DNA of 11,426 nt. Origin: Frankiales bacterium. GTDB lineage: Bacteria; Actinomycetota; Actinomycetes; Mycobacteriales; Jatrophihabitantaceae. A program made the translations under genes and the position numbers. The number at the start of each line of letters is the position of its first letter. The stretch's first letter is position 1. The stretch spans positions 1 through 11,426 of the forward strand of contig JAOPUY010000101.1 of the NCBI GenBank assembly GCA_025963265.1. Direction: 5' to 3'. Positions 1,250-11,258 of the stretch are shown one piece after another. The notes below the pieces were generated by a model. The model searched no databases. It was given only the letters and a program-made list of their open reading frames with translations, and was not told the origin of the DNA.

Positions 1250-1708
1250 ATGTCAACCATCCGCTTCACGCAGAGCACCAGCCTGACGCCCGCGCAGTAC
1301 ATCGCCGGCTTGACTGATTTCGGGCCCGGGCGTTCCAAGATCTTCAGCAACAGCGCCGACAGCTATTTGAAGGTGCACCACGTCGGACCAGCGGACGCCG
1401 ATGTCACCGAAGGCTCCGGCGGTGTGTGGGAGCGCCTGCGATACGACTGGGCCAATCCCGACCGCGTCGTACTCACGACAACCGATTCGAACACCTGGGG
1501 CGGCCGCTCGGGCTACACCTACACGTTCACGCCCTCGCCTGGGGGCGCGACCGACGTGCACGTGGTCATTGTCCGGGAGGGCAAGAACCTCAAGGGCCGC
1601 ACACTCGCCCTTGTCGTCGGCAGCGTCGGCAAAGGCGTCCTCAAGAAGTCGTTCGTGAACAGCGTCCGGGCGATCGAGGCCCGCAATAACCAAGCCCCGC
1701 AACGATAA
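1250..1708 (+). CDS. SRPBCC family protein (START-like ligand-binding fold)
   Basis: This 152-residue protein is of the size and pattern of actinobacterial SRPBCC (Bet v 1/START-like) proteins. A short N-terminal strand (IRFTQSTSLTP) is followed by the central region WERLRYDWANPDRVVLTTTDSN, then paired strands YTYTFTPSPGGATDVHVVIVREG and a long C-terminal helix GKGVLKKSFVNSVRAIEARN. Such proteins bind hydrophobic ligands in a helix-grip cavity; some are cyclases or aromatases, many have unknown ligands. I chose the ATG at 1250 because GAGGAGGAG ends two bases before it and the homology-like part begins there. An upstream in-frame ATG at 1172 would add 26 residues that look like leader DNA. 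It is first in a five-gene run, 15 bp before the VOC gene. Confidence 0.8.
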   Translation: MSTIRFTQSTSLTPAQYIAGLTDFGPGRSKIFSNSADSYLKVHHVGPADADVTEGSGGVWERLRYDWANPDRVVLTTTDSNTWGGRSGYTYTFTPSPGGATDVHVVIVREGKNLKGRTLALVVGSVGKGVLKKSFVNSVRAIEARNNQAPQR

Positions 1709-1723
1709 ATCCAGGAGGTCCTC

Positions 1724-2404
1724 ATGACCACTAGTCGTGTCAGCGCAGAAAGCGCGACCCGCGAGACGAGTCCGCTGCAGGTCGATCTGAAGCTCGAGGT
1801 CGTCGTCATTCCCGTAGCCGATGCCGACCGTTCGAAGGAGTTCTACGCCAGCCTCGGGTGGCGTCTGGATGCCGACTTCGCTTTCGACAATGGCTTCCGC
1901 GTCGTTCAATTCACGCCGCCCGGGTCGCCCGCCTCGATTCAATTCGGGTCGAAGATCACCACCGCGGCACCGGGGTTGGCGCGCGGGCTCTACCTGGTGG
2001 TCTCCGATGTGCGGGCCGCGCGGGACCGGCTCGCCGGACTCGGCGTGGGAATCAGCGAGGTCTTCCACCCCCGATCGCCGGGCGCGCAGTTCGCGCAGGA
2101 CGCCGCCGAGCGCGACAGCGGGCCGGCACCCGACCGCGCGACCTACAGCTCTTTCGCGACCTTTAGCGACCCTGACGGCAATGAGTGGCTCTTGCAGGAA
2201 GTCACCCAGCGCCTTCCCGGCCGCGTCGACAGCGCCGAGACCGCGTTCACGTCGGCGACCGATCTGGCGAACGCGATGCGACGCGCGTCGATCGCCCACG
2301 GCGAGCATGAGAAGCGTCAAGGCGGCGAGTTCGACGTGAACTGGCCCGATTGGTACGCCAGCTACATGGTGGCCGAGCAGAAAGGCGCCGAGCTGCCGAC
2401 CTGA
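1724..2404 (+). CDS. VOC family (glyoxalase/bleomycin-resistance fold) protein with C-terminal extension
   Basis: This 226-residue protein carries a single vicinal-oxygen-chelate domain, roughly residues 22-162. The first beta-alpha unit is KLEVVVIPVADADRSKEFYASLGW, the mid strand is GLYLVVSDV, and the closing strand is FSDPDGNEWLLQE. The usual metal ligands are only partly kept: Glu25 stands where His is common, Gln73 is near the second position, and Glu159 is retained. Metal use is therefore uncertain. Residues 178-226 form an extra helical tail (ANAMRRASIAHGEHEKR, then NWPDWYASYMVAEQ) that is not part of the VOC fold. The start has a very good AGGAGGT at 1713-1719 with four bases of spacing. 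It lies 31 bp upstream of the hydrolase gene. The role could be a dioxygenase-like, isomerase or binding function; the sequence does not decide. Confidence 0.85.
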   Translation: MTTSRVSAESATRETSPLQVDLKLEVVVIPVADADRSKEFYASLGWRLDADFAFDNGFRVVQFTPPGSPASIQFGSKITTAAPGLARGLYLVVSDVRAARDRLAGLGVGISEVFHPRSPGAQFAQDAAERDSGPAPDRATYSSFATFSDPDGNEWLLQEVTQRLPGRVDSAETAFTSATDLANAMRRASIAHGEHEKRQGGEFDVNWPDWYASYMVAEQKGAELPT

Positions 2405-2435
2405 GCGAGCCGAACCAGACCCGAAAAGAGTTGCG

Positions 2436-3269
2436 ATGAACACCTCGCAGACCGCAACGATCACGCCCCAGTTCCGGACGATCGACGGAGTGCGGATCCG
2501 CTACGCCGACAGCGGCGGCCCCGACGAGCCGGTGATACTGCTGACCTGCCCTTGGCCGGAGAGCATTTTTGCCTTTGCGCGGCTGTGGAACACGCTCGCC
2601 GAGCACGCTCGCCTGTTCGCCGTCGACCTCCCGGGCTTCGGCGCCTCCGACCGCCGAGACGACCTGCTGTCGCCGCGGGCGATGGGAGAGTTTTTGCTAC
2701 GGCTGACCGGGGCGGCTGACCTCGGGCGGCCGCATATCGTCGCCCCCGACGTGGGCACCTCCGCCGCCCTGTTCGCTGCCGCCCGGCAGCCGGCGCCGTT
2801 TGCCGGCGTGGTCGTCGGGACCGGCGGAGCCGCCGTCCCGATCCAGCTCGGTGAGCCGCTCCGGTCCTGGGTGCTCGATCCGGACTTGGACAAGTACCGC
2901 CGGATCGACCCGCGGGTGATCGTCGACGCCGCGATGCAGACGATCGCCGGCGGAGTGCCCGATGAGGTTCGCGCCGACTACGTCGCCTGTTACGCCGGCG
3001 ACCGGTTCGTCGAGTCGATGCGTTATGCGCGCAGGTATCCCGAGGAATTGCCGGAGCTCGCCACACTGCTGCCGAGCATCACGACGCCGGTCACGATCAT
3101 CAACGGCCGCCACGACCGGGTCGTTCCGCTCGCGAACGCGGAGTTTCTCGACGAGCGGCTCCCCCACAGTCGTCTGGAGATCATCGACGCCGGCCACTTC
3201 GTCTGGGAGGAGGCGCCGGCGGAGTACGCCTCGATCATTCTCGACTCACTCACCCCGGGGTGGTCATGA
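2436..3269 (+). CDS. Alpha/beta hydrolase with Asp nucleophile (epoxide hydrolase / haloalkane dehalogenase-like)
   Basis: This 277-residue alpha/beta hydrolase has a complete apparent triad. The nucleophile elbow is APDVGTS with Asp105 as nucleophile, the acid is Asp227 in INGRHDRVVP, and the His is His254 in DAGHFVWEEAP. An Asp nucleophile is typical of epoxide hydrolases and haloalkane dehalogenases rather than esterases, which use Ser. The oxyanion-loop HG(x)P motif is replaced by LTCPWPES (residues 36-43), and VDLPGFGASD follows as usual. The residue after the nucleophile is Val rather than the Trp of dehalogenases, so an epoxide hydrolase or C-C hydrolase-like role is as likely. No signal peptide is seen. 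The stop overlaps the next ATG by four bases (ATGA at 3266-3269), implying translational coupling. Confidence 0.88.
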   Translation: MNTSQTATITPQFRTIDGVRIRYADSGGPDEPVILLTCPWPESIFAFARLWNTLAEHARLFAVDLPGFGASDRRDDLLSPRAMGEFLLRLTGAADLGRPHIVAPDVGTSAALFAAARQPAPFAGVVVGTGGAAVPIQLGEPLRSWVLDPDLDKYRRIDPRVIVDAAMQTIAGGVPDEVRADYVACYAGDRFVESMRYARRYPEELPELATLLPSITTPVTIINGRHDRVVPLANAEFLDERLPHSRLEIIDAGHFVWEEAPAEYASIILDSLTPGWS

Positions 3270-4180
3270 GGCAGCTGAGCGCGGACCCGGCGCCCGCAAT
3301 CGACACGCTCAACCTGACCGCCCATCGCGGCGTTCTGGTCGCGGAGATAGCGGCGCCGCCGATGAACCTTCTCGGGCCAGAGCTGGTCCGCGACCTCGTG
3401 TCGCTCATCCAACTCGCTGAGGCCGATGAGTCCGTGCAGGTGGTCGTGTTCAAAAGCGCCGACCCCGACTACTTCATCTCGCACGTCGACTTGACCAAGG
3501 TCGCTGAATATCGGGCCGAGGCGGTCCGCCTGACCGGCGAAGCGTCGATTGCCAGCCTGTTCCGCCGCCTGAGCGACAGCCGGCTGATCACGATCGCGCA
3601 GATCGAAGGGCGGGCCCGTGGCGCCGGCAGCGAATTCGCGTTGGCCTGCGACCTGCGTTTCGCCGCCCGTGAAAAGGCGATCTTCGGTCAGTTCGAGCCC
3701 GCGTTCGGACAGCTCCCCGGCGGCGGCGGCGCCCAGTACCTCACGCGGCTGATGGGTCGGGCGCGGGCGCTCGAGGTGATGCTGACCGCCGAGGACTACG
3801 ACGCCGATCTCGCCGAGCGATACGGCTGGATCAACCGGGCGCTGCCGGCCGACGCGCTCGATGAGTTCGTCACGGCGCTCGCCCATCGGATCGCGGCGTT
3901 TCCGGCCGCCGGGCACCTCACCGTGAAGCAGCGGGTCAACGCGATTTCGCTCGCCCCGATCGAGGATTTCCGGCGCGACTCCGATCTGTTCCGCGACAGC
4001 GTGGCCGGGGCCGAGACGCAGCGCTTGATCCAGGCGGCGATGAAGCACGGACTGCAGACCCGCGACGGAGAACTGGACCTCGCGGCGATGCTCGGCGTGT
4101 TGACCGACCAGGGCGACGAACCGGCAGGTCAGGTCGATCAGATCGGCTCGGCAGCCATCCCGACCGAGGAAGCGACGTGA
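3266..4180 (+). CDS. Enoyl-CoA hydratase/isomerase (crotonase) family protein
   Basis: This 304-residue protein is of the crotonase superfamily, which stabilises CoA-thioester enolates. The oxyanion-hole region is GRARGAGSEFALACD with Glu123, and the second acidic residue is Glu144 in FGQFEPAFGQLPGGGGAQYLTR. Both positions match the two catalytic Glu residues of hydratases, so hydratase chemistry is plausible. The first CoA-pocket loop, usually A-G-A-D, reads ISHVD (71-75), an atypical variant. It is longer than the usual 260 residues because of a C-terminal tail of about 40 polar residues. I chose the ATG at 3266, which overlaps the hydrolase stop as ATGA; a GTG at 3260 would add two residues. 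The 3' end overlaps the SDR start as GTGA. Confidence 0.9.
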   Translation: MRQLSADPAPAIDTLNLTAHRGVLVAEIAAPPMNLLGPELVRDLVSLIQLAEADESVQVVVFKSADPDYFISHVDLTKVAEYRAEAVRLTGEASIASLFRRLSDSRLITIAQIEGRARGAGSEFALACDLRFAAREKAIFGQFEPAFGQLPGGGGAQYLTRLMGRARALEVMLTAEDYDADLAERYGWINRALPADALDEFVTALAHRIAAFPAAGHLTVKQRVNAISLAPIEDFRRDSDLFRDSVAGAETQRLIQAAMKHGLQTRDGELDLAAMLGVLTDQGDEPAGQVDQIGSAAIPTEEAT

Positions 4181-4914
4181 GCGGGCCCGGCACCGGCGAG
4201 CGGAGGCTCGCGGGCCAGTCCGTGGTGGTGCTCGGCGGCACCGCGGGGATCGGGCTGGAGACCGCTCGCCGCGCGCATGAGGCGGGCGCGGACCTGATCG
4301 TGACGGCCCGCGATCCGGACCGCTTGAGTCGAGTCGGACGCGAGCTTGGTGCGCGGACGTTTGCCTTCGACCTCAATGACGCTGACCAGCTCGCGCGGTT
4401 CTTCACCACTCTGCCCGGCCAGGTCGACCATGTCCTGGTGTCAGGGGCTGGTCCGCGCTATCTGCCCTTTGCCGAGCTGGACATCGGCACGATCCGTCAT
4501 GGGGTCGAACGGATCGTGCTGTCCGTGCAGATCGCCCAGCTGGCCAAAGCCGCGTTGCGCCCGACCGGGAGCCTGCTGCTGATCGGCGGAACCGGCGGGC
4601 GACGTCCCTCGGCCGGGCCCCTCATCTCCGCCGTCACCGCCGCCCTGCCGGCCCTGGTGAGAAGCCTGGCCCTCGAACTCGCGCCGGCTCGCGTCAATCT
4701 GATTGCCCCGGGGTTCGTCGACACGCCGTTGTCGGCCACGCTCCTGGGCGACGGGCTCGACGAACGACGCGAACAGCTACGGGCAACCCTGCCGATCCAG
4801 CGCGTCGTCGGCCCGGCGGACGTCGCCGCGCTGGCCGTCGACCTGATGACGAACACCGCCGTCACTGGAGCAACCTTCGACATCGACGGCGGCCAACAAC
4901 TCGTCGAGGGCTGA
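4177..4914 (+). CDS. Atypical SDR-fold oxidoreductase lacking the catalytic YxxxK
   Basis: This 245-residue Rossmann-fold protein of the short-chain dehydrogenase/reductase family has the cofactor motif GGTAGIG at residues 20-26. A TAR(D) sequence after the second strand (43-46) would favour NADP(H). The family ending is kept: SLALELAPARVNLIAPGFVDTP, then TGATFDIDGGQ. Aligning back from LALELAP, the stretch that is normally YSASK reads ISAVT (150-154), so both catalytic Tyr and Lys are missing, and the catalytic Ser position lies in IGGTGG. This suggests a non-classical reductase, a binding role, or loss of activity. The start is GTG, overlapping the upstream stop as GTGA. It is the last gene of the run; a hairpin region follows. 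Confidence 0.88.
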   Translation: MSGPGTGERRLAGQSVVVLGGTAGIGLETARRAHEAGADLIVTARDPDRLSRVGRELGARTFAFDLNDADQLARFFTTLPGQVDHVLVSGAGPRYLPFAELDIGTIRHGVERIVLSVQIAQLAKAALRPTGSLLLIGGTGGRRPSAGPLISAVTAALPALVRSLALELAPARVNLIAPGFVDTPLSATLLGDGLDERREQLRATLPIQRVVGPADVAALAVDLMTNTAVTGATFDIDGGQQLVEG

Positions 4915-4920
4915 CCGCGG

Positions 4921-4974
4921 CCGGGCCACCGGAGCGGGCCGGGCCACCTGATAGCGCCCGGCCACCTGATCGCT
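4921..4974. repeat. Three-copy 18-bp tandem repeat between convergent genes
   Basis: Three consecutive 18-bp units start at 4921, 4939 and 4957. They share CCGGGCCACC (third copy CCCGGCCACC), and copies two and three continue with CTGAT. The array fills nearly all of the 59-bp gap between the SDR stop and the permease stop. Unit two and unit three also form the hairpin listed separately. Confidence 0.7.
4937..4963. terminator. Strong GC hairpin between convergent genes, possible bidirectional terminator
   Basis: GGCCGGGC at 4937-4944 pairs perfectly with GCCCGGCC at 4956-4963 across an 11-nt loop. The all-GC 8-bp stem is stable and is placed between the 3' ends of two convergent genes. There is no T run on either side, so it is not a canonical intrinsic terminator; actinobacteria often use such U-less hairpins, but whether this one terminates is inferred from position. 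Confidence 0.45.
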
Positions 4975-5753
4975 CAGCGCGAGGTGCGATGCCGGAACAG
5001 CCACGATGCCGCCGCGACCGACCCGACCAGGATGGCGGCGCAGTAGCCGATGGCCACCACGGCTTCCCGCCCCACGCTCGCCCCGGTGGAGGTGTGGCCC
5101 ATCCAGAGGCCGCGCATCGTTTCGATGATCGGGGTGAAGGGTTGGTGCTCGGCGACGCCGCGAAGCGCGGCGGGCATGGTGTGCGCCGGGACGAACGCGG
5201 TGCTGACGTAGGGCAGGAACATCAGCACGAACGTGAAGGAGTTCGCCGCCTCGACGGTGCGCGCCAACAGCCCGACGGCCGCCGCCAGCCACGACAGGGC
5301 CAGGACGAACGTCACGATCATCGCGACCGCGCCAAGCCAGGGCAGGACCGAGGTCGTGGGACGCCAGCCGACGCCGAGTCCCACCCCGATGACCAATGCG
5401 GTGGCGAGCAGGTTGCGGGCCAGACTGGCCACGATGTGCCCGAGCAGGATGGACGAGCCGCTGATCGGCATGGACCGGAACCGGTCGACGATGCCATTGC
5501 TCATATCGGTCGCAACCGCGACGGCGGTCGTCCCGGCTCCGAATCCGGCGCAGAGCACGATCAGCCCGGGCACGACGTAATCGACGTACGCGCCGCCGGT
5601 GTTCAAGGCGCCGCCGAAGACGTAGACGAACAGCAGCATCAGCACGATCGGCAGCATGAGCGCGGTGAAGAAAGCCTCGGGATCGCGGCGCGAGCGACGC
5701 AGGCAACGCGCCACCATGACACCGGAGTCCTTGACGGCGTGGGCAATGCTCAT
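4974..5753 (-). CDS. ABC-2 type transporter permease (DrrB-like)
   Basis: This 259-residue integral membrane protein has about six hydrophobic segments, near residues 29-48, 57-80, 104-128, 137-163, 170-190 and 231-252. The N-terminus with a cytoplasmic RRSRRDPEAFF helix, the DMSNGIVDRFRSMPIS loop after the second helix, and AEHQPFTPIIETMRGLW before the last helix are typical of ABC-2/DrrB exporters of drugs or lipids. It pairs with the ATPase encoded just upstream; the two overlap as ATGA at 5750-5753, and AAGGAG lies about eight bases before the ATG. The complex would sit in the cytoplasmic membrane and export an unknown substrate, likely under the divergent TetR regulator. Confidence 0.92.
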   Translation of the reverse strand: MSIAHAVKDSGVMVARCLRRSRRDPEAFFTALMLPIVLMLLFVYVFGGALNTGGAYVDYVVPGLIVLCAGFGAGTTAVAVATDMSNGIVDRFRSMPISGSSILLGHIVASLARNLLATALVIGVGLGVGWRPTTSVLPWLGAVAMIVTFVLALSWLAAAVGLLARTVEAANSFTFVLMFLPYVSTAFVPAHTMPAALRGVAEHQPFTPIIETMRGLWMGHTSTGASVGREAVVAIGYCAAILVGSVAAASWLFRHRTSR

Positions 5754-6694
5754 CGGACGAGCTCCTTCGATTCGGGCCCGGCGCTGGTCAGGGCGAGAAA
5801 GACCTCATCGAGGCTTGGGCGGTGACTGGTCACCTTCGAGGCCGCCACGCCCGCGTCATCCAGTCGACGCAACACGGCCGACACCTCGGCCGCTGATCCG
5901 TCCGTGGCGACCTCGAGGGTGCGCAGCCGGTCGGGTGTCGGTTCGGCCGCCAGGCACGCGAGCGCGCCCTGATAGCTGGCGGCGTCGGCGAACTGCAGGC
6001 GCAGCACCTCGGCCCCCAAGTTCGCCTTGAGCGCCTCGGGTGTGCCGCGGGCGACGACGCGGCCCCGATCGAGCACCGCGATCGTGTCAGCGAGTTGGTC
6101 TGCCTCCTCTAGATACTGCGTCGTCAGCAGGAAGGTGACGCCGTCGGCGACGAGGCGGCGGACCGTGGCCCACAGCTGGTCGCGGCTGCGTGGGTCGAGC
6201 CCGGTCGTCGGTTCGTCCAGGAACATCAGTTGCGGGTGACTGATCATGCTGACGGCCAGATCCAGTCGGCGTCTCATTCCGCCGGAATAGGTTCCGGCCC
6301 GCCGGTCGCGCGCGTCGGCGAGGTTGAATTCGGCCAGCAACTCCCGGACCCGCGGTCCGACCGCGCGGCGTGGAAGGTGCCGCAACCGCGCCATCATCTC
6401 CAAGTTCTCCTGACCGGTGAGCACGTCGTCGATGGCCGCGTACTGCCCGGTCAGGCTGATCGAACGCTTCACCCCGACCGGGTCGGTGAGCAGGTCGCGG
6501 CCGGCGACGGTGGCGGCGCCGACGTCGGGTCGCAGCAGGGTGGCCAGAATTCGCACCAGCGTCGTCTTGCCGGCACCGTTCGGACCGAGCAACGCCAGCA
6601 CCGATCCGGTGCTGACCTCGAGGTCGACCTGGTCGAGCACCGTGCGCGCCCCAAAGGACTTGCTGAGTCCACGGGCTATTACTGTGTATGTCAT
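5750..6694 (-). CDS. ABC transporter ATP-binding protein (DrrA-like)
   Basis: This 314-residue ATPase has a Walker A at 37-44 (GPNGAGKT), Q-loop Gln84, signature YSGGMRRR (136-143), Walker B LMFLDEP (156-162) and D-loop TTGLDPRS. The switch His is Gln193 in TTQYLEEADQLAD, a wording typical of the DrrA drug-exporter subfamily. The C-terminal 80 residues form the usual DrrA tail, ending VTSHRPSLDEVFLALT. I chose the ATG at 6694 because the conserved part (TYTVIARGLSKSFG) starts there. No Shine-Dalgarno is present, but TACTCT ends six bases upstream, which fits a leaderless transcript. A TTG at 6730 would add 12 residues encoded by the operator DNA. The gene is probably repressed by the divergent TetR protein. 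Confidence 0.92.
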   Translation of the reverse strand: MTYTVIARGLSKSFGARTVLDQVDLEVSTGSVLALLGPNGAGKTTLVRILATLLRPDVGAATVAGRDLLTDPVGVKRSISLTGQYAAIDDVLTGQENLEMMARLRHLPRRAVGPRVRELLAEFNLADARDRRAGTYSGGMRRRLDLAVSMISHPQLMFLDEPTTGLDPRSRDQLWATVRRLVADGVTFLLTTQYLEEADQLADTIAVLDRGRVVARGTPEALKANLGAEVLRLQFADAASYQGALACLAAEPTPDRLRTLEVATDGSAAEVSAVLRRLDDAGVAASKVTSHRPSLDEVFLALTSAGPESKELVR

Positions 6695-6720
6695 ATACAA
6701 AGAGTATGTGCCATACACAG
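6682..6720. promoter_or_regulatory. Dual palindromic operator for the TetR regulator in the divergent exporter/tetR promoter region
   Basis: CTGTGTATGTCATATAC at 6682-6698 pairs with GTATGTGCCATACACAG at 6704-6720 with 15 of 17 matches around a 5-bp centre; the outer nine bases are a perfect match. Inside, each arm is itself a near-palindrome of the form GTATG-N3-CATAC: 6686-6698 (five of six pairs; the match continues one pair outward) and 6704-6716 (five of six). The two are in tandem, centres 18 bp apart, and identical at 10 of 13 positions. This fits two TetR dimers side by side. The left site covers the ATG of the ABC ATPase gene, and the right site lies just before the tetR -10 element, so occupancy should repress both genes. 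Confidence 0.85.
6701..6706 (-). promoter_or_regulatory. Candidate -10 element of the ABC exporter operon
   Basis: On the minus strand TACTCT fits TANNNT and ends six bases before the ATG at 6694, so transcription would begin at or next to the start codon. It lies inside the operator. No convincing -35 is visible. Confidence 0.5.
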
Positions 6721-6721
6721 A

Positions 6722-6727
6722 TATAGT
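6722..6727 (+). promoter_or_regulatory. Candidate -10 element of tetR
   Basis: TATAGT fits the actinobacterial -10 consensus and ends six bases before the ATG at 6734, placing the likely transcription start at the start codon (leaderless). It begins two bases after the operator. No clear -35 is visible. Confidence 0.6.
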
Positions 6728-6733
6728 CAAGGG

Positions 6734-7534
6734 ATGCCGCGACGATCCGACCCGCCCGCCGAACCGGTTCCGCCGTCCTTCCCGCTGCCGCCGGGCCTGG
6801 ACCTGCTCTGGGGTCGACGCGAACGCGGCCAGCGCGGCCCCAAGCCGGGGCTGTCACTCGATGCCATCGTCGATGCCGCAGTGGCCATCGCCGACGCCGA
6901 CGGACTCGATGCCGTCTCGATGGCCCGAGTGGCCAAGGAACTCAACTTCACGACGATGTCGCTGTACCGCTACGTGAGCGGCAAAGACCAGCTGCTGCAG
7001 CTGATGTGGAATGCCAGCGCCCGGGGCGCGAGCGACGTCGTCCTCGAAGGCGAAGGCTGGCGGGCGCGGCTGCGAAGCTGGGTCCTCATTCAACGCGACG
7101 TGATCGACAGCCATCCGTGGATCACCCAGATGCCGATGGCCGCGCCGCCGGTCGCGCCGAACTCGTTGACCTTCGTCGAGCGCGGGCTCGAGACCCTGGA
7201 AGGCACCGGTCTAGCCGACGGCGACAAGCTTCGACTCATCGGGCTCCTCAGCAGCTACACCCTGAGCGAGGCCCGGATGGCCAATGACACCAAGCGGGCC
7301 GCCGCCGCGGCCGCGGCGGCGGGAGCCCAAGCCGGCGCCGGTTGGACGTTCGAGATGCTGCTGCGCCAGCTCGTCGATGAACCGACCTATCCGCTGCTGC
7401 ACCGCATCGCGTGGACCCAGGACGTGGGCGGCGGCGCCGCCGGCGCCAGCGAGCGCGCGGAGTTTCTCTTCGGCGTGGAACGAATACTCGACGGCATCCA
7501 GTCCTTCATCGATCAGACGGGCTCCTCGGGCTGA
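6734..7534 (+). CDS. TetR/AcrR family transcriptional regulator
   Basis: This 266-residue repressor-type protein has a 40-residue Pro-rich N-terminal arm. The TetR N-terminal domain follows (about 41-90), with the helix-turn-helix VSMARVAKELNFTTMSLYRY followed by VSGKDQLL. The rest is a large ligand-binding domain of the type with WVLIQRDVIDSHPWI and a final FLFGVERILDGIQSFI helix. A run of nine consecutive Ala (189-197) in a flexible stretch separates helices. The ATG at 6734 starts six bases after a TATAGT -10 and has no separated Shine-Dalgarno box (only AAGGG touching the ATG), so leaderless translation is likely. It is divergent from the DrrAB-like exporter and should control it and itself through the shared operator. 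The inducer is unknown, possibly the exported compound. Confidence 0.92.
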   Translation: MPRRSDPPAEPVPPSFPLPPGLDLLWGRRERGQRGPKPGLSLDAIVDAAVAIADADGLDAVSMARVAKELNFTTMSLYRYVSGKDQLLQLMWNASARGASDVVLEGEGWRARLRSWVLIQRDVIDSHPWITQMPMAAPPVAPNSLTFVERGLETLEGTGLADGDKLRLIGLLSSYTLSEARMANDTKRAAAAAAAAGAQAGAGWTFEMLLRQLVDEPTYPLLHRIAWTQDVGGGAAGASERAEFLFGVERILDGIQSFIDQTGSSG

Positions 7535-7547
7535 CCTCGGCCTGATT

Positions 7548-7631
7548 CCCAGCCACCGACCCCCAGTCGCGGATCCCCAGCCACCGACCTCCAGCCGCCG
7601 ATCCCCAGCCGCCGATCGCCAGTCGCCGAGC
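7548..7631. repeat. Six-copy 14-bp tandem repeat downstream of tetR
   Basis: Six head-to-tail 14-bp units start at 7548, 7562, 7576, 7590, 7604 and 7618. The consensus is CCCAGCCGCCGATC; units one and three are identical (CCCAGCCACCGACC), and units four and five differ only in the first base. There are no spacers, so this is a minisatellite and not a CRISPR array. It begins 13 bp after the tetR stop and has no open frame of its own that I can support. Function unknown. Confidence 0.85.
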
Positions 7632-9428: not shown

Positions 9429-9450
9429 CGGCTAGCGACCCGCTCAGCCG
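9429..9450. repeat. Hairpin overlapping the S53 peptidase stop codon
   Basis: CGGCTAGCG at 9429-9437 pairs with CGCT(C)AGCCG at 9441-9450 with one bulged base and a three-base loop. The peptidase stop (9444-9446) lies in one arm. On the minus strand an A run rather than a T run follows, so a classical terminator is not supported in that direction. A T5 run (9424-9428) precedes it on the plus strand. Confidence 0.4.
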
Positions 9451-11258
9451 GGTGGGGGCAGGGCGGCGGGCAGGGTGGCCCAGTTCGGGACGCCGAGGCC
9501 GCTGGCGAGGTCGTAGCCGGTGCTCGCTTGGCAGCATCCGACGTCGGCCAGGTCGTTGTCGCCGGTGACGACGTCGTAGAACGCGCCCGGCCTTTCCGCG
9601 GCGGGGTAGAACCAGCCGTTGGCCAGCCCGATTCGGGGTCGGCCCGCGGCGCGCTCGGAGGCGTCGACCAGCGCCGTGGCCGCGGCGGTGAACGGCGTCG
9701 AGCCGCTGGTCCCGCCGACCGGCTGGACGGTGGAGTCGAGGATCACCGGCCAGCCGGGCACGATGTCAGCGAGCGCGCTGACGTCGGGCACGGCTCGGTG
9801 GTCTTGTGGGTTGGCTTTGGCCTGGTAGGACGGCCGGGCCTCGCGGCGGCTGAGCGCGCCGCCGCCGGCGGCGCTCTCGCCGTAGGCCGAGTCGTTCCAG
9901 ACCGTCTCCGACACGCGCGTGTTCCCCGGGCCGAGCGTCAGCCGGGTGCCGCCCACCGCGGTGACGAAGGGCGAGACGGCCGGGTAGGACAAGGTGGTTC
10001 CGCTGACGGTCGTGCCGCAGCTGGTCGAGCCGGAGTCGCCCGCGGCCACGAACGAGGACACGCCGGTGAGCGCGGTCATGGCCAGCACAGAGTCGACGAC
10101 GGCGGTGAAGGCCGGAGTGGCGGTGTTCTCCGCGATCGCGCAGCCGCCGTAGGACAGCGAGATGACGTCTGGAAGCCCGCTCGGACCGCCGATCGCCCGG
10201 CTGAAGCCGTCCAGGATGCCGCTGCCGCTGGCCGCGCTCTGCACGAGCTGGACCCGCGCGCCCGGGGCCACCGCGGCGGCGGTCTGCAGGTCGAGCGACG
10301 TCTCGGGGTCGGCGTTGGCGATGGCGGTGGCGACCCCGTCGCCTTGCGTCTGGTCCACGGGCGGCGGGGTGTATCCGAAGCACCGCCCGGCGAGCTGGAG
10401 GTCGCTCGACAGCCAGCCGCCGCCGAGGTCCAGGATGGTGATCAGCGGCGTGCCCGAGGCGTGGGCCCGCAGGGTGTCGACGCCGTAGGCGGTCTGGACC
10501 TGCTGCTCGGTGTAGGCCTGGCCTTGCTGCAGCGGAGGCGACGAGCAGCCGGCGGTGAACGGGGTGCCGTCGTTGCTCGGCCACGGCTGCGGCGCAGCGG
10601 TGCTGCTCGCGGCGTCGGCCGGGCCGTTGACGCTGGCCGGGCCGTTGCCGGCGGGCGGATGGCGCCCTTCGGCCGTCGGGGAGTACACCTCGGCCGTCGG
10701 CAGCAGGATCGCGGCGCCGGCGGGGTGCAGCGCGCCCGGGGTCTGAGCCGGCAGGGTGTAGGTGATGAACGGGTTCGACGCGGTGGCGGCCTGCACGGTG
10801 AGCGGGGCGCCTAACGCGCTCTGCCACTGCTGGACCGATCCAGTGACCCGCGAGAACAGCCGGGTCGGGTCGGCGGCGAATCGCAGGCCGAGCGAGTCGA
10901 CCGATTTGGCGATGCTGTTTATCTGCGCGTCGCTCGCGCCGAACTGATCGGCCGCCGCCGCCAACGGGCTGAACCGCCGGTAGTCCGAGGTCCCCGCGGT
11001 CGCCACATTGGCCGCGGCGTCGCTGAGCGCGGCGGCCGAGGCCGGCAGCGACAGGTAGAAAGTGACCTCGCCGGCCCTCGGACTCGGCAACGACACCGGC
11101 GCCGACGCCGCCTTCGACGTGCAGCCGCTGAGAACCGACCCGGCCAGCGCCACGGCCGCCGCCAGCGCAACGCCGGTGGGCGCCTTCCGCCGGGCGTCCG
11201 CAGCGCCGCGCCAGGCCCGCCTTGGGGGCCGGCTCAACCGGGCTGGAACTCCGATCAT
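9444..11258 (-). CDS. S53 family (sedolisin/kumamolisin-like) serine-carboxyl peptidase, predicted lipoprotein
   Basis: This 604-residue secreted protease has a basic N-terminus and a hydrophobic stretch (30-42) leading to the lipobox LSGC with Cys46, so it is predicted to be lipid-anchored outside the membrane. Residues about 60-190 look like the pro-kumamolisin activation domain (VTFYLSLP, then DYRRFSPL and the LPTAEVYSP end). A Pro/Ala/Ser linker follows, then the catalytic domain from about 245. All catalytic residues are seen: Glu319 and Asp323 in DPETSLDLQ, Asp408 in VAAGDSGS, and Ser518 in GGTSGSTPFTAA. The Ca-site segments FYDVVTGDND and GYDLASGLGVPNW close the domain. Such enzymes are active at acidic pH after prodomain removal. 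The ATG overlaps the stop of a short upstream frame as ATGA; GGTGAG abuts it. Confidence 0.93.
   Translation of the reverse strand: MIGVPARLSRPPRRAWRGAADARRKAPTGVALAAAVALAGSVLSGCTSKAASAPVSLPSPRAGEVTFYLSLPASAAALSDAAANVATAGTSDYRRFSPLAAAADQFGASDAQINSIAKSVDSLGLRFAADPTRLFSRVTGSVQQWQSALGAPLTVQAATASNPFITYTLPAQTPGALHPAGAAILLPTAEVYSPTAEGRHPPAGNGPASVNGPADAASSTAAPQPWPSNDGTPFTAGCSSPPLQQGQAYTEQQVQTAYGVDTLRAHASGTPLITILDLGGGWLSSDLQLAGRCFGYTPPPVDQTQGDGVATAIANADPETSLDLQTAAAVAPGARVQLVQSAASGSGILDGFSRAIGGPSGLPDVISLSYGGCAIAENTATPAFTAVVDSVLAMTALTGVSSFVAAGDSGSTSCGTTVSGTTLSYPAVSPFVTAVGGTRLTLGPGNTRVSETVWNDSAYGESAAGGGALSRREARPSYQAKANPQDHRAVPDVSALADIVPGWPVILDSTVQPVGGTSGSTPFTAAATALVDASERAAGRPRIGLANGWFYPAAERPGAFYDVVTGDNDLADVGCCQASTGYDLASGLGVPNWATLPAALPPPG

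Follow-up and report, generated by a model that had tools for sequence, protein, structure and literature searches.

The dyad between the regulator and exporter genes

In the genome of a Frankiales bacterium, a gene for a TetR-family regulator and a gene for a DrrA-like exporter ATPase stand back to back with a 39-bp palindrome between them, which raises the question of what this palindrome is and what would recognize it. The stretch of DNA that was analysed, called the window in the following, comprises 11,426 nucleotides (contig JAOPUY010000101.1) and contains these elements at the locus:

6682..6720, no strand: composite dyad of 39 bp with its centre at 6701, a candidate tandem operator, identified by its palindromic symmetry and its conservation
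6734..7534, plus strand: TetR-family regulator with a TetR_N HTH and a TetR_C_1 domain; nearest solved structure SimR
5750..6694, minus strand: drrA-like ABC ATPase (TIGR01188, PF00005), with a start that is conserved in relatives
4974..5753, minus strand: DrrB-like ABC-2 membrane subunit (PF01061), whose start overlaps the drrA stop

The sequence at 6682-6720 is CTGTGTATGTCATATACAAAGAGTATGTGCCATACACAG. A recount about the centre at 6701 found 15 of 17 arm pairs matched, the 5-nt centre excluded, and thereby bore out the imperfect palindrome that an earlier, sequence-only reading of the window had described. The same reading had regarded the position between tetR and a DrrAB-like exporter as suited to autoregulation and exporter control, and the divergent layout supports this. 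The dyad sits between both genes and runs into the drrA start, and the two start codons are 39 bp apart, placing a divergent exporter gene within 200 bp of the regulator. A TetR regulator closer than 200 bp to a divergent gene is considered a likely repressor of that gene in one published account (PMC3511530).

The regulator matched both of its Pfam domains (PF00440 with 34.1 bits, cutoff 24; PF02909 with 51.3 bits, cutoff 21) and the ATPase matched the NCBIfam model for DrrA (TIGR01188, 329 bits, cutoff 312.45). The membrane subunit stayed under the cutoffs of the DrrB models TIGR01247 (46.3 bits, cutoff 223.05) and TIGR00025 (81.1 bits, cutoff 146.9); by its domain match it is an ABC2_membrane protein and is hence termed 'DrrB-like' only.

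Chance and conservation

As a bare palindrome within an 11.4-kb window, the dyad is neither exceptional nor significant. In Markov simulations of the whole window, 15 of 60 reached 15 of 19 arm pairs somewhere, and another centre in the same window, at 9773, likewise reaches 15 of 19. None of 2000 simulations of the local 65-nt region with its own composition reached 15, the region having been picked afterwards. The strong evidence for the dyad is its conservation across loci and not its palindrome statistics.

Loci with the regulator or a relative of it were gathered (74) and 65 were kept; nine duplicates were dropped, of which three repeated the window. The 65 loci consist of 38 with a divergent drrA homologue, including the window, and 27 without a drrA hit, while one additional locus, L075, stands outside this set. 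The 26 loci with a regulator identity of at least 47%, again including the window, are referred to as the near set. For scoring conservation, CTGYGTAYG and CRTACRCAG served as the two arms, sought at any gap up to 69 within the 300 bp ahead of the regulator match. Scores of at least 16 of 18 were obtained in 35 of the 38 loci with a divergent drrA and in 26 of the 27 without, as expected if orthologous intergenic regions keep the palindromes, a point on which the sequence-only reading had staked its proposal. Control stretches of 300 bp from the same loci never reached this score (0 of 643; maximum 15), although the arm motif was derived from these very loci and the control therefore measures motif chance only. 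As the relatives are phylogenetically clustered, all such counts describe a pattern and not independent trials. The 6682-6720 dyad is a genuine feature and is conserved.

Among the 38 loci with drrA, 32 had their best arm gap at 20-22; among the 27 without, 23 had it at 22. Best arm pairs with other gaps occurred in six of the former (L007, L053, L055, L057, L058, L059) and four of the latter (L005, L006, L033, L061). In L007 the site was mispicked by the scoring script, and a weaker dyad is visible at its drrA start; this locus was kept in the near-set register averages and excluded from the codon counts and half-site pairing counts. No site was apparent in the arm scoring of the upstream region of L033. 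L006, L053 and L061 have a best arm gap of 1-3 nt, apparently a single symmetric site and not a tandem. Inspection by eye of the region upstream of the tetR relative in L036, L059 and L060 found seemingly three palindrome copies and not two, which suggests that the number of sites varies within the family.

The repeating unit

The sequence-only reading had divided the dyad into two tandem GTATG-N3-CATAC palindromes, 18 bp apart. This motif is exact in the right half only (6704-6716), the left half reading GTATG-N3-TATAC. The window alone does not separate the possible registers: 1-nt centres at 6691 and 6711 give 7 + 5 of 8 pairs and 3-nt centres at 6692 and 6710 give 6 + 6, a tie at 12 of 16 pairs each. 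Across the near set, a 1-nt centre averages 6.50 pairs of 8 in the left site and 4.85 in the right, against 3.54 and 4.62 for a 3-nt centre, so that the left site distinguishes the registers clearly and the right site hardly at all. In the 23 scored loci without drrA, the averages are 6.17 (left) and 6.00 (right) with a 1-nt centre and 1.91 and 3.00 with a 3-nt centre. On these register scores, GTATG-N3-CATAC was rejected as the unit. Because the relatives favour 1-nt over 3-nt centres, the unit is, as judged from sequence comparison, a 17-bp palindrome of the form TGTGTATG-N-CATACACA, present in two copies:

6683..6699, no strand: predicted left 17-bp operator, TGTGTATG-T-CATATACA, 7 of 8 pairs, shared in part with drrA codons 1-4
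6703..6719, no strand: predicted right 17-bp operator, AGTATGTG-C-CATACACA, 5 of 8 pairs, in the drrA -35/-10 region

Each half of the dyad thus does hold a near-palindrome of TetR size, as had been claimed, yet the distance of 18 bp gives way to 20 bp between centres in the window, with 3 bp between the two copies. Most relatives show 21 bp, namely 17 of the 26 near loci and all 23 scored loci without drrA. Two adjacent 17-bp sites of the GYGTAYG-N-CRTACRC type with centres 20-21 bp apart are therefore found here, the right one being weak in the window (5 of 8), with a strong outer and a weak inner half-site. In the near loci generally, the left halves are good palindromes and the right halves fair ones. 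A search of the window's own genome (63% complete) for the 17-bp pattern with up to three mismatches returned no other match.

Two dimers bound side by side or on opposite faces had both been envisaged. A centre distance of 20-21 bp, about two helical turns, favours a side-by-side arrangement on one face of the DNA. The opposite arrangement would be an interleaved dimer-of-dimers site of the QacR/CprB type, in which two dimers occupy opposite faces of the same 22-32 bp. The overall dyad symmetry does resemble such composite operators, and QacR, CgmR, Ms6564 and CprB bind as two dimers (PMC4150764). The predicted 17-bp palindromes are, however, non-overlapping, with 20-21 bp between centres, and the same paper describes SimR, the closest structural relative of the regulator, as a single homodimer on a 17-bp site. 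We therefore regard the interleaved arrangement as improbable.

Overlap with the drrA start codon

The left site includes the drrA ATG (6694-6692); of its 17 bp, 12 belong to codons 1-4. By script, the same register of start and operator was found in 25 of the 26 near loci, and the start in L007 has the same context. Codon 2 in the 25 loci is ACA (12), CCA (4), GCA (3), ACG (3), TCA (2) or AGA (1); its last base is A in 22 of 25, the window included, while the residue varies between T, P, A, S and R. At the palindrome centre lies the first base of this codon, the one that varies. Of the 25 loci, 23 have ACA as codon 4. In the rest of drrA (26 loci), ACA accounts for 15 of 642 Thr codons, and 258 of 7449 codons end in A. 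Read from these sequences, the pattern at codon 2 is the reverse of normal coding constraint, and the retention of its last A under a changing residue indicates that selection acts on the DNA site and not on the peptide.

This bears directly on the idea that the element is conserved DrrA N-terminal coding sequence (MTYTV) which is palindromic by accident. The left site does overlap codons 1-4 and conservation of the peptide is good across the near set, but besides the behaviour of codon 2, the right site is non-coding, and the dyad persists with an unchanged gap in 23 of the 27 loci that have no drrA hit. In addition, 13 script-picked starts in more distant loci lack MTYTV, L017 having perhaps MAYTV at another codon. 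Such an accident is extremely unlikely to account for the dyad.

In the 13 other loci (12 more distant ones and L075), where the starts were likewise script-picked, 6 of 52 of codons 2-5 end in A. The script-picked start also falls within the operator in L043 and perhaps in L017. In L043, a more distant locus with 40% regulator identity, it is the left operator that contains the drrA start, and the overlap may thus have arisen more than once. The start-codon overlap is a mildly unusual feature of this operator.

Promoters and a probably leaderless exporter gene

The predicted promoter elements coincide with the dyad and its flank:

6725..6730, minus strand: putative drrA -35, TTGACT, from a promoter scan
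6701..6706, minus strand: putative drrA -10, TACTCT, ending 6 nt before the ATG
6722..6727, plus strand: putative tetR -10, TATAGT, ending 6 nt before the ATG at 6734, proposed from its sequence

A stricter promoter scan gave the same drrA -35, but with CATACT (6708-6703), two bases upstream, as the -10. The putative tetR -10 overlaps the drrA -35; no clear -35 was seen for the tetR promoter of the window, and the stricter scan does not report its -10. A TACnnT ends 6-7 nt before the drrA start in all 26 near loci (counted without a chance control), with TTG- or TGG-type -35 elements at a spacing of 16-18 (18 in 23 loci); in six of the 26, the -35 matches TTGACA at only three of six places. 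A Shine-Dalgarno-like 4-mer at -20 to -5 of drrA is absent from all 26. With a TACnnT this close to the start and no Shine-Dalgarno sequence throughout the near set, drrA is probably leaderless. Among the 13 other loci, a Shine-Dalgarno-like sequence precedes the script-picked drrA start in eight, and in several of the loci further removed, whose regulator is of the same kind, a separate Shine-Dalgarno leader lies downstream of the operator.

The transcript starts also matter for an RNA hairpin, acting as riboregulator or attenuator, that the dyad might encode. The plus strand folds at -19.6 kcal/mol (z -5.84) and the minus strand at -15.9 (z -4.85), although folding is expected of any such DNA palindrome. 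In 25 near loci, outer half-sites pair with each other at 6.76 of 8 positions and inner half-sites at 5.04, the outer ones being the better conserved. The inner arms match each other as closely as the right site matches itself (5.00), and this measure taken singly is compatible with a hairpin. In the 23 loci without drrA, on the other hand, the two sites self-pair at 6.17 and 6.00 positions against 5.00 for the inner arms. With transcripts starting at the predicted promoters, neither mRNA would hold both arms, and in a published relative, SGR3979, a protein binds this motif (PMC3511530). A function as RNA hairpin is accordingly very unlikely.

The regulator and its published relatives

By sequence, the closest solved structure to the regulator is SimR (E 5.9e-20), and SimR entries also lead the fold search (3ZQL, 2Y31, 2Y2Z; 31-33% identity in the fold alignment). 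The regulator model has a pLDDT of 76.5 and a pTM of 0.66, with residues 12-15, 20-31, 136-142 and 231-236 below 50. Forty relatives, chosen from 120 listed and each at least 66% identical, were aligned and share a conserved stretch ahead of the HTH: residues 18-24 in at least 90%, and L25, W26, G27, R28, R29, G35 and P36 in all. As the N-terminal extension of SimR enters the minor groove, according to the title of a paper cited in PMC5812520, this conserved stretch makes a DNA-binding N-terminal arm likely in the regulator too, in a region where the model is not confident. The group to which the regulator belongs may be large, 3552 of 7996 scored candidates lying at E <= 1e-20 by sequence.

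The most informative comparison is that with SGR3979 of Streptomyces griseus. As described in PMC3511530, this TetR-family regulator is divergent to the ABC pump SGR3978/3977 at a distance of 144 bp. It produces two shifts in EMSA and one footprint, close to the pump gene, and acts as a repressor of the pump; TGCGTAATGCTTACGCA and CGCGTATGGCATACGCA are its putative operators. Compared with GYGTAYG-N-CRTACRC, CGCGTATGGCATACGCA fits at 14 of 14 positions and TGCGTAATGCTTACGCA at 11 of 14. SGR3979 thus resembles the window in combining a TetR repressor divergent to an ABC pump with two related operators. The exact operator pair occurs once in 392 genomes (taken to be Streptomyces), at locus L075, with a 4-bp spacer and centres 21 bp apart; it is flanked there by a regulator 45% identical (246 columns) and a DrrA 53% identical (313 columns) to those of the window. 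The operators of L075 lie upstream of a Shine-Dalgarno sequence and the drrA start, whereas in the window the left site covers the start codon and there is no Shine-Dalgarno sequence. The half-site is TGTGTATG in the window and of the GCGTA type for SGR3979, and the spacing is 20 bp in the window and 21 bp in L075. Judging by the L075 proteins, the window element is likely a homologue of an experimentally characterised operator.

SimR of Streptomyces antibioticus (3ZQL, 2Y2Z) shares with the window the 17-bp operator, the presence of two operators, which lie between simR and the divergent simX (PMC5812520), and the divergent exporter. It differs in that SimX is an MFS pump and in that its operators are described as separate and not as one tandem dyad.

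Proposed mechanism

By analogy to these systems, the dyad very probably serves the neighbouring TetR regulator as its operator and offers it two sites of dimer size, binding being argued from SGR3979. We hold with considerable confidence that the regulator encoded at 6734-7534, which is SimR/SGR3979-like, has its tandem operator in the 39-bp dyad, and that its side-by-side dimers would repress exporter and regulator and be released by a ligand. Each 17-bp site would take one regulator homodimer, and the two dimers would lie adjacent on one DNA face, about two helical turns apart. Protein on the left site would cover the start point and start codon of the presumably leaderless drrAB operon, and protein on the right site the core of the putative drrA promoter. 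As the bound protein would also cover the overlapping putative tetR promoter, exporter and regulator would be repressed together. A ligand, probably an exporter substrate, would then free the dimers and the pump would be induced. Binding and its side-by-side stoichiometry are inferred here, as are a leaderless transcript, the repression and the release by ligand.

Operators at the start of a gene

Two of the features proposed here are already described: a TetR operator over the start of an ABC pump gene (MSMEG_3762) and TetR control of a leaderless operon (AcuR). MSMEG_3765 is a TetR repressor of the ABC efflux operon MSMEG_3762-63 (PMC5660060, PMC10663510), and the MSMEG_3762 operator, palindromic over 36 bp, runs on into the pump coding sequence and overlaps a TATA box lying 10 bp before the start (PMC5660060). 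This system is like the window in having a long TetR operator over the coding start of an ABC pump, but has another operator sequence and a regulator gene within the pump operon instead of divergent to it. AcuR of Rhodobacter sphaeroides is a TetR-family repressor of a leaderless operon with its operator in the promoter region (PMC3017554). As with the window, where drrA is putatively leaderless, a TetR-family operator in a promoter region is thus combined with a leaderless operon; unlike in the window, the operon is catabolic, the operator is another one and the regulator is the first gene of the operon. A literature search found no account of this group's operator fused with a start codon, which is weak evidence as subscription papers were mostly outside its coverage, and a text search for exact 11-mers of the motif together with TetR returned only papers with unrelated titles.

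The chances seem to us evenly balanced that in this actinobacterial clade one element of about 40 bp has arisen by fusion of a two-dimer operator with two divergent promoters that overlap each other and with the opening codons of a leaderless exporter gene. In such an element, the repressor site would dictate the N-terminus of the ATPase, a switch between led and leaderless genes would be traceable under a fixed operator, and the same-face spacing of 20/21 bp would point to cooperative side-by-side dimers. What is gained is a specific operator consensus of the CTGYGTAYG-N-CRTACRC type, in two copies with centres 20-21 bp apart, that allows target prediction, and an example of an operator that constrains what a gene, presumably a leaderless one, can encode at its start. 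What is generally understood about TetR-family efflux control does not change.

Exporter types and gene neighbourhood

In the loci examined, the regulator group often adjoins ABC exporters, with MFS exporters in the two other cases scanned. The divergent gene of L035, a locus with a canonical dyad and no drrA hit, encodes an MFS transporter (Pfam), which indicates that the dyad follows the regulator and not the type of pump. The divergent gene of L005, also without a drrA hit, is likewise of the MFS type; its dyad is atypical, with a best arm gap of 17. Upstream ORFs were listed for 12 of the 27 loci without a drrA hit, several of the longest being spurious antisense frames, and Pfam was run on two (L035 and L005). 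By eye, the divergent ORF of L033 is not an MFS gene, and that of L061 resembles an ABC membrane subunit.

Elsewhere in the window, the minus-strand gene at 9444-11258 encodes a kumamolisin/sedolisin-like protease (Peptidase_S8, 32.3 bits, cutoff 21.8; Pro-kuma_activ, 25.2 bits, cutoff 23.5) with no NCBIfam family match. Right after the tetR stop, at 7544-7629, lies a tandem repeat with a 28-bp unit (GATCCCCAGCCACCGACCCCCAGTCGCC) in 3.1 copies at 86%. Small enzyme genes on one strand occupy 1250-4914 (glyoxalase/VOC, alpha/beta hydrolase, enoyl-CoA hydratase and SDR, together with an SRPBCC/polyketide-cyclase match under its cutoff), and by these domain matches the run resembles a small cluster for catabolism or tailoring, convergent with drrAB.
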